This document shows positions 20,395 to 21,291 of a stretch of DNA of 64,000 nucleotides, piece after piece (position 1 is the first letter of the stretch; every line of letters begins with the position of its first letter). The DNA lies in contig CALZIK010000122.1 in the NCBI GenBank assembly GCA_945787635.1, positions 1 to 64,000 of the forward strand, in the 5' to 3' direction. This DNA is from Thermoanaerobaculia bacterium. Its GTDB lineage: Bacteria; Acidobacteriota; Thermoanaerobaculia; Multivoradales; JAHEKO01. The translations under genes were made by a program, and so were the position numbers. Under the pieces are notes generated by a model. That model saw only the letters and a list, made by a program, of their open reading frames with translations, did no database searches and was not told the DNA's origin.

Positions 20395-20676
20395 CTAGTC
20401 CGTGCGGCTGGTGATCTCGATCAGGTGATACCCGAACTGGGTCTGGACCGGTCCATGGACCTTGCCAACCTCGGCGCTGAAGACCACCGTGTCGAACTCC
20501 GGCACCATCTGGCCAGGGCCGAACTCGCCGAGCGCTCCGCCCTGAGCGCTCGAGGGACACTGCGAGTGTTCCTTGGCAACGGATCCGAACTCGGCTCCGG
20601 CTTCGATCTGGCTCTTGAGATCTTCCGCCGCCTGCTGGTCGGAAACTAGAATGTGGCGTGCCTTCGCTTTGGACAT
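20395..20676 (-). CDS. Parvulin-type peptidyl-prolyl isomerase
   Basis: A 93-residue single-domain parvulin, like PpiC of E. coli, that catalyses cis-trans isomerisation of prolyl bonds. The signature is complete: KARHILVSD, FGSVAKEHSQCPS, GGALGEFGPGQMVPEFD and TQFGYHLIEI. The start is ATG 20676, preceded by AGAGGAG, since the frame upstream is not conserved and would give a non-parvulin leader. There is no signal peptide, so it is cytosolic. Confidence 0.93.
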   Translation of the reverse strand: MSKAKARHILVSDQQAAEDLKSQIEAGAEFGSVAKEHSQCPSSAQGGALGEFGPGQMVPEFDTVVFSAEVGKVHGPVQTQFGYHLIEITSRTD

Positions 20677-20766: not shown

Positions 20767-21291
20767 TCAGGGTTCCTCCAACTCGACGCCCAGGCCGTCG
20801 GCGATGCGATTGACGAACGCGAAATAGGCGGTGACTGAACAGATATCGTGGATGGCGCGATCGTCGAAGCCGTGCTCACGCAGGCGGGTGGCGTCCGCGG
20901 CCTCGACCGCCCCGGGAGCAAGGGTGAGCTTGATCGCGTAGTCGAGCATGGCGCGATCCCGCTCGGAGAGGTCCGCGCGGGAATAGTCCCCGGCGAGATC
21001 GCGAAGCAGAGCGTCCTGCGCCTCCGGACTCGCAGATTCGGCCTCCAGCAACGAACGGAGTCCCGCTCCGTGGTGGACGACTCAGTAGTGGCATTCATTG
21101 GCGGCCGAGACCGCCACGGCGATCATCTCGCGCTGCACTCTGGTCAGTGGACCCGGCCCCCGCATCAGCTCGCGATACAGGTCGAAGTGCAGTCGCATCG
21201 TGCGCGCGTGAACGCCATGAATCCTGAGGATGTTGTCCGTGTCGGACACCCGGTCGTCCTTCGAGACCGACGCATAGTCGATATAGGCCAT
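20767..21291 (-). CDS. AhpD-like peroxidase-related protein, probable selenoprotein with in-frame TGA
   Basis: One continuous frame of 174 residues belonging to the carboxymuconolactone-decarboxylase/AhpD superfamily (uncharacterised peroxidase-related type). The N-terminal half has the hallmark ILRIHGVHARTMRLH, LTRVQREMIAVAVSAANECHY; the C-terminal half has VVHHGAGLRSLL, and a helical tail. The two halves are in the same frame and are separated by one TGA (21082-21084) at residue 70. In relatives this is the second cysteine of the CxxC redox motif (CHYC), so the codon most likely encodes selenocysteine, giving Cys67-His-Tyr-Sec70. A SECIS-like hairpin follows at 21055-21071. AhpD proteins reduce peroxidases using this dithiol. 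The ATG at 21291 begins the conserved start MAYIDY. A TGC/TGT-to-TGA nonsense mutation in a pseudogene is the alternative. No sel genes are in this window. Confidence 0.78.
21055..21071 (-). promoter_or_regulatory. Candidate bacterial SECIS hairpin
   Basis: Directly downstream of the TGA on the minus strand, ACGGAG (21071-21066) pairs perfectly with CTCCGT (21060-21055) around the five-base loop CGGGA. The loop begins 16 nt after the TGA, the stem is 6 bp, and a G is among the first two loop bases. As I recall, these agree with the published consensus for bacterial SECIS elements (distance about 16-37 nt, G early in the loop). The stem could be chance in GC-rich DNA. Confidence 0.55.

Follow-up and report, generated by a model that had tools for sequence, protein, structure and literature searches.

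An AhpD-like gene of an uncultured Acidobacteriota bacterium with a conserved in-frame UGA predicted to encode selenocysteine

AhpD-like selenoproteins with a CxxU motif were listed from the Sargasso Sea in 2005 (PMC1088965), and a bacterial survey of 2006 included AhpD-like selenoproteins with COG2128 members (PMC1794560). In 2008, 299 'AhpD-like 1' COG2128 sequences were counted in the GOS data (PMC2398784), and a table of 2026 enters the family TIGR01926 with CxxU (PMC13188914). This kind of selenoprotein has therefore been known since 2005-2006, and the gene described here adds a member to it. In two Cys-containing proteins, AhpD of M. tuberculosis and PA0269 of P. aeruginosa, peroxidase activity is supported by a five-residue proton relay (PMC3141380).

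In this work, we have analysed an AhpD-like gene in a window of 64,000 nucleotides, the whole stretch of DNA under study, which belongs to a draft Acidobacteriota MAG of 203 contigs. The gene (Table 1) is a single frame that starts with ATG and comprises 175 codons, with one internal stop, the TGA at codon 70; its terminal codon is also TGA. ORF calling cuts it in two, a 102-aa ORF that ends at the internal TGA and a 94-aa ORF that starts with TTG. A previous sequence-only reading of this DNA had described one minus-strand frame with that TGA as its sole internal stop, had quoted family motifs from it, and had anticipated that standard calling would yield two truncated ORFs; translation and ORF calling bear this out, and the quoted motifs were all found. 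Nine in-frame TGAs in the window are flanked on both sides by long open coding-like frames, and this one alone has a Cys within four codons. The other in-frame TGAs of the window lack a nearby Cys and, judged by appearance and not case by case, mostly resemble antisense shadows of real genes.

Table 1. Features of the candidate selenoprotein gene, in window coordinates
Feature	Position	Strand	Basis
AhpD-like selenoprotein gene (TIGR01926/COG2128, CMD domain), 174 aa with predicted Sec70	20767..21291	-	Profile matches and full-length homologues
UGA in frame, predicted to specify selenocysteine at residue 70	21082..21084	-	TGA in 69/69 Sec-type loci; the same column has TGC/TGT in 38 Cys-type homologues
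Codon TGC of Cys67, the partner thiol in CHYU	21091..21093	-	Cys in 69/69 Sec-type loci
Codon of Glu55, predicted to act in the proton relay (equivalent to Glu118 of AhpD)	21127..21129	-	Glu in 69/69 Sec-type loci; spacing as in PA0269/MtAhpD
Codon of His74, predicted to act in the proton relay (equivalent to His137 of AhpD)	21070..21072	-	His in 69/69 Sec-type loci; motif spacing
Predicted bacterial SECIS hairpin ACGGAG-CGGGA-CTCCGT	21055..21071	-	Family fold signal and published bSECIS rules

The read-through product scores 52.1 bits against Pfam CMD (curated cut-off 23) and 135.6 bits against NCBIfam TIGR01926, the peroxidase-related enzyme family (curated cut-off 81.8), which confirms the carboxymuconolactone-decarboxylase/AhpD-family identity originally proposed. 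The profile of AhpD proper (TIGR00777) gave 20.1 bits, far under its curated cut-off of 191.95, and those of two other families gave 54.5 bits of a cut-off of 175 (NF041238, AhpD-related CFYUT (seleno)protein) and 13.7 bits of a cut-off of 110 (NF041047, GSU3128 (seleno)protein). Three genomes from the host order also gave distant CMD-type matches (G034:C16:710965-711321, G045:C6:779748-780104 and G050:C17:186263-186613), each within a 361-residue open frame carrying one TGA; these frames are possibly another AhpD-type selenoprotein family, to be compared with NF041238.

Is the internal TGA maintained in evolution? Matches turned up in 46 genomes when the genome and its relatives were searched, and in most of them the frame has a single internal stop, again a TGA. 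Homologous loci from further phyla came from a scan that took one genome for each species; they are labelled as Calditrichota, Gemmatimonadota, Neomarinimicrobiota/Fidelibacterota, Chloroflexota, Eisenbacteria, Planctomycetota, Myxococcota and others, although such MAG labels may err; by these labels, the loci bearing the TGA span from the same genus out to about ten phyla. The codon-70 column contains TGA in 69 loci (67 of them distinct, as two pairs are the same record) and TGC or TGT in 38 homologues, so that the relatives do carry the second Cys of the CxxC at the TGA position, as previously claimed. E55, C67, Y69 and H74 are conserved in the homologous loci bearing TGA, and E55, C67, U70 and H74 are invariant in the 69 Sec-type loci. 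The assignment Cys67-His-Tyr-Sec70 agrees both with the aligned Cys homologues and with the AhpD catalytic motif. Among the 69, a single homologue has a further in-frame stop, a TAG, and downstream of the TGA codon positions 1 and 2 are still more conserved than position 3, which shows that the coding constraint continues. Unrelated disruptions in the closest relatives, named beforehand as a sign of decay, were looked for, and the identical TGA was seen instead, with no pattern of decay.

The host genome contains the machinery for selenocysteine decoding. A search for the sel genes, proposed together with the original prediction, recovered all of them: tRNA-Sec (73 bits over cut-off, with the anticodon TCA assigned by ARAGORN) and, by family searches, selB (342 bits), selA (426 bits) and selD (357 bits). 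Across phyla, selB exceeds its cut-off in 31 of the 35 genomes with the Sec form of the gene versus 2 of the 13 with the Cys form (Fisher p 4e-6); within the host order no contrast was seen, nearly all genomes there having selB. Of the four Sec-form drafts without a selB match over cut-off, at least two carry strong partial selB-like pieces, and the rest may be incomplete assemblies. Separately, the selD gene of the host genome (G000:C151:2790-3722; L048, L134) has an in-frame TGA in its N-terminal motif (CAGU), so that SelD itself looks like a selenoprotein, and contig C195 has a second selD-like domain, free of TGA, within an 864-residue open frame.

Downstream of the UGA there is a candidate SECIS hairpin with a 6 bp stem and a 5-nt loop, CGGGA, that has G at position 2 and lies 16 nt past the UGA; its local energy is -7.6 to -7.9 kcal/mol. 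Published bSECIS rules ask for a stem of 4-16 bp, a loop of 3-9 nt with G in one of its first two positions, a distance of 16-37 nt from the UGA and an MFE of at most -7.5 (PMC13188914), and the hairpin agrees with all of them. The region from +13 to +29 was compared with synonymous recodings in the 57 distinct Sec genes whose motif is followed by His-His, using an 18-nt window centred on the conserved hairpin: the mean z was -1.96, with 63% of the genes below p 0.05, versus a mean z of -0.45 and 0% for the same register in Cys genes. These z values are somewhat favoured, because the hairpin windows were picked after the conserved register had been found in the same sequences; the contrast with the Cys genes and the shifted windows, in which synonymous recoding gave no signal, served as the control for this. 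The base pairs of the hairpin are kept in Sec genes, and two are broken in Cys genes. Codon choice differs between the two sets, with Gly GGA/GGG and Leu CTC in Sec genes versus Gly GGC/GGT and Leu CTG in Cys genes, and supports the hairpin. Neither a generic fold z-score for the 42 nt downstream nor synonymous recoding in a 36-nt window told Sec genes from Cys genes, and an Rfam search at the hairpin returned no match. For the window gene alone, the MFE fold of a longer downstream stretch contains a competing hairpin that is favoured by about 2 kcal/mol, so the SECIS support comes from the family and not from the single fold of this gene. Another 10 Sec genes form a second subgroup, which is without the +13 to +29 hairpin and has its own at +20 to +39, in which 6 positions are fully paired and the loop, 24 nt away from the UGA, contains G. 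Hence two SECIS-like registers occur within one family and match two sequence subgroups; the loci with the second register are L043-L046, L087-L089, L092, L095 and L102.

A pseudogene that arose by a nonsense mutation of the Cys codon would also show a TGA one base from TGC or TGT in a frame that otherwise encodes a normal CMD protein, but it would hardly show an unchanged TGA across 69 loci, with next to no additional stops, coding constraint beyond the TGA and the full Sec machinery in the genome. The draft state of the genome could likewise raise the suspicion of a sequencing or assembly error in a Cys codon; independent assemblies from the same genus, family and order and from other phyla share the TGA at this codon, and an error would have had to recur there in dozens of separately assembled genomes. 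Because the TGA is conserved, other stops are nearly absent and the constraint continues downstream, decay and sequencing error are excluded for practical purposes, and we give each of them a negligible probability. A genome-wide reassignment of UGA, for example to Trp, or a leaky read-through without selenocysteine is just as improbable: this same gene and two neighbouring ORFs terminate at TGA, the aligned residue is Cys and not Trp, tRNA-Sec, selA, selB and selD are all present, and nothing was found in favour of either. Comparative sequence evidence thus points to a functional AhpD-like selenoprotein whose UGA would be read as selenocysteine, with a probability of about 0.96. We propose that SelB with Sec-tRNA(UCA) binds the hairpin just past the UGA and that selenocysteine is inserted at residue 70 instead of termination. 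Since this gene also terminates at TGA, it would fall to the hairpin to tell the internal UGA from the terminal codon.

What reaction might such a protein catalyse? An AlphaFold2 model built from 42 aligned sequences (pLDDT 96.3) has as its best structural matches the AhpD-like peroxidase-related proteins 3c1l, 2pfx and 2prr (TM 0.84-0.87), in agreement with the sequence search, and predicts the all-helical AhpD fold. The protein carries the relay motif E55-x11-C67-H-Y-U70-x3-H74; the spacing of E55, C67, Y69, Sec/Cys70 and H74 is that of Glu36, Cys48, Tyr50, Cys51 and His55 in PA0269, and M. tuberculosis AhpD has Glu118, Cys130, His132, Cys133 and His137 spaced in the same way (PMC3141380). 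Peroxidase-type chemistry is thus probable for this AhpD-like selenoprotein. It is likely a seleno-thiol peroxidase or a peroxidase-reductant that forms a selenenylsulfide between Cys67 and Sec70 and relays protons through Glu55 and His74; Sec70 would be the attacking and Cys67 the resolving residue. In the mechanism that we envisage, Sec70, activated via Glu55/His74, would attack a (hydro)peroxide or a peroxidase disulfide, Cys67 would resolve the intermediate to a Cys-Sec selenenylsulfide, and a cellular thiol system would reduce the latter. The AhpD fold of the selenoprotein could instead serve another reaction, such as disulfide exchange or the reductive dehalogenation of Bmp8, a debrominase that also has the AhpD fold (6ohi, 6ohj). 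The family name 'peroxidase-related' is no assay, and residue 73 is His in most Sec-type members versus Ala in the Cys-type members; against this, every relay residue of the peroxidase motif is invariant, and the nearest structures belong to the peroxidase-related group, while Bmp8 scores far lower. We therefore consider another reaction unlikely, and peroxidase-type chemistry remains our preferred reading.

The immediate neighbours of the gene are a PpiC-type isomerase gene and a GNAT acetyltransferase gene. The PpiC-type parvulin gene lies directly downstream (window 20398-20673, minus strand), and its counterpart in a same-genus genome (L028) is 92% identical and also adjacent; this was the only genome in which the adjacency was seen when gene neighbourhoods were compared, and no conserved partner was found. 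No peroxiredoxin gene adjoins the window gene. The genome has at least one AhpC/1-Cys type peroxiredoxin, and no tie to the AhpD-like protein was found. A second AhpD-like gene of the same genome (G000:C33:25678-26145; L133:5001-5468) has an in-frame TGA at the CHYU position, and its motif type, TEAHGEDLR, places it in the subgroup with the +20 to +39 register.

In a maximum-likelihood tree, 68 Sec rows and 35 Cys rows fall into separate groups; the Sec group also takes in two Cys rows on long branches, whose placement is unsure. The simplest reading of this tree would be one main Sec clade. We put forward only tentatively, and regard as rather improbable, the broader idea that the Sec-type proteins, a largely separate multi-phylum clade with mostly CHYU-x2-HH and two SECIS registers, could represent an ancient or widely exchanged Sec-dependent enzyme whose reaction is distinct from that of the Cys-type peroxidase-related proteins. 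A gene that standard callers split in two would correspond to a conserved redox enzyme of uncultured Acidobacteriota and many other phyla, and the contribution of selenium to the AhpD fold can be studied with the set of 67 Sec and 38 Cys homologues.

How does this gene compare with the known systems? With the published AhpD-like CxxU selenoproteins (PMC1088965, PMC2398784, PMC1794560, PMC13188914) it has in common the family model TIGR01926, the CxxU position and, by prediction, a bacterial SECIS after the UGA; compared by description only, it differs in coming from an uncultured Acidobacteriota, and many of the Sec members found here have CHYU-x2-HHGAG. The families NF041238 and NF041047 are likewise AhpD-type selenoproteins with CxxU, but the window protein is far below their cut-offs. 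With M. tuberculosis AhpD and P. aeruginosa PA0269 it shares the E-x11-C-x2-C-x3-H relay at the same spacing, whereas its overall size and arrangement differ, its similarity to TIGR00777 is weak, and the second Cys would be replaced by Sec. The Cys-type peroxidase-related structures 3c1l, 2pfx, 2prr, 2oyo and 6k40 have the same fold and catalytic motif, with 28-36% identity in structural alignments, but carry Cys at the second position of the CxxC, where the window protein is predicted to carry Sec.
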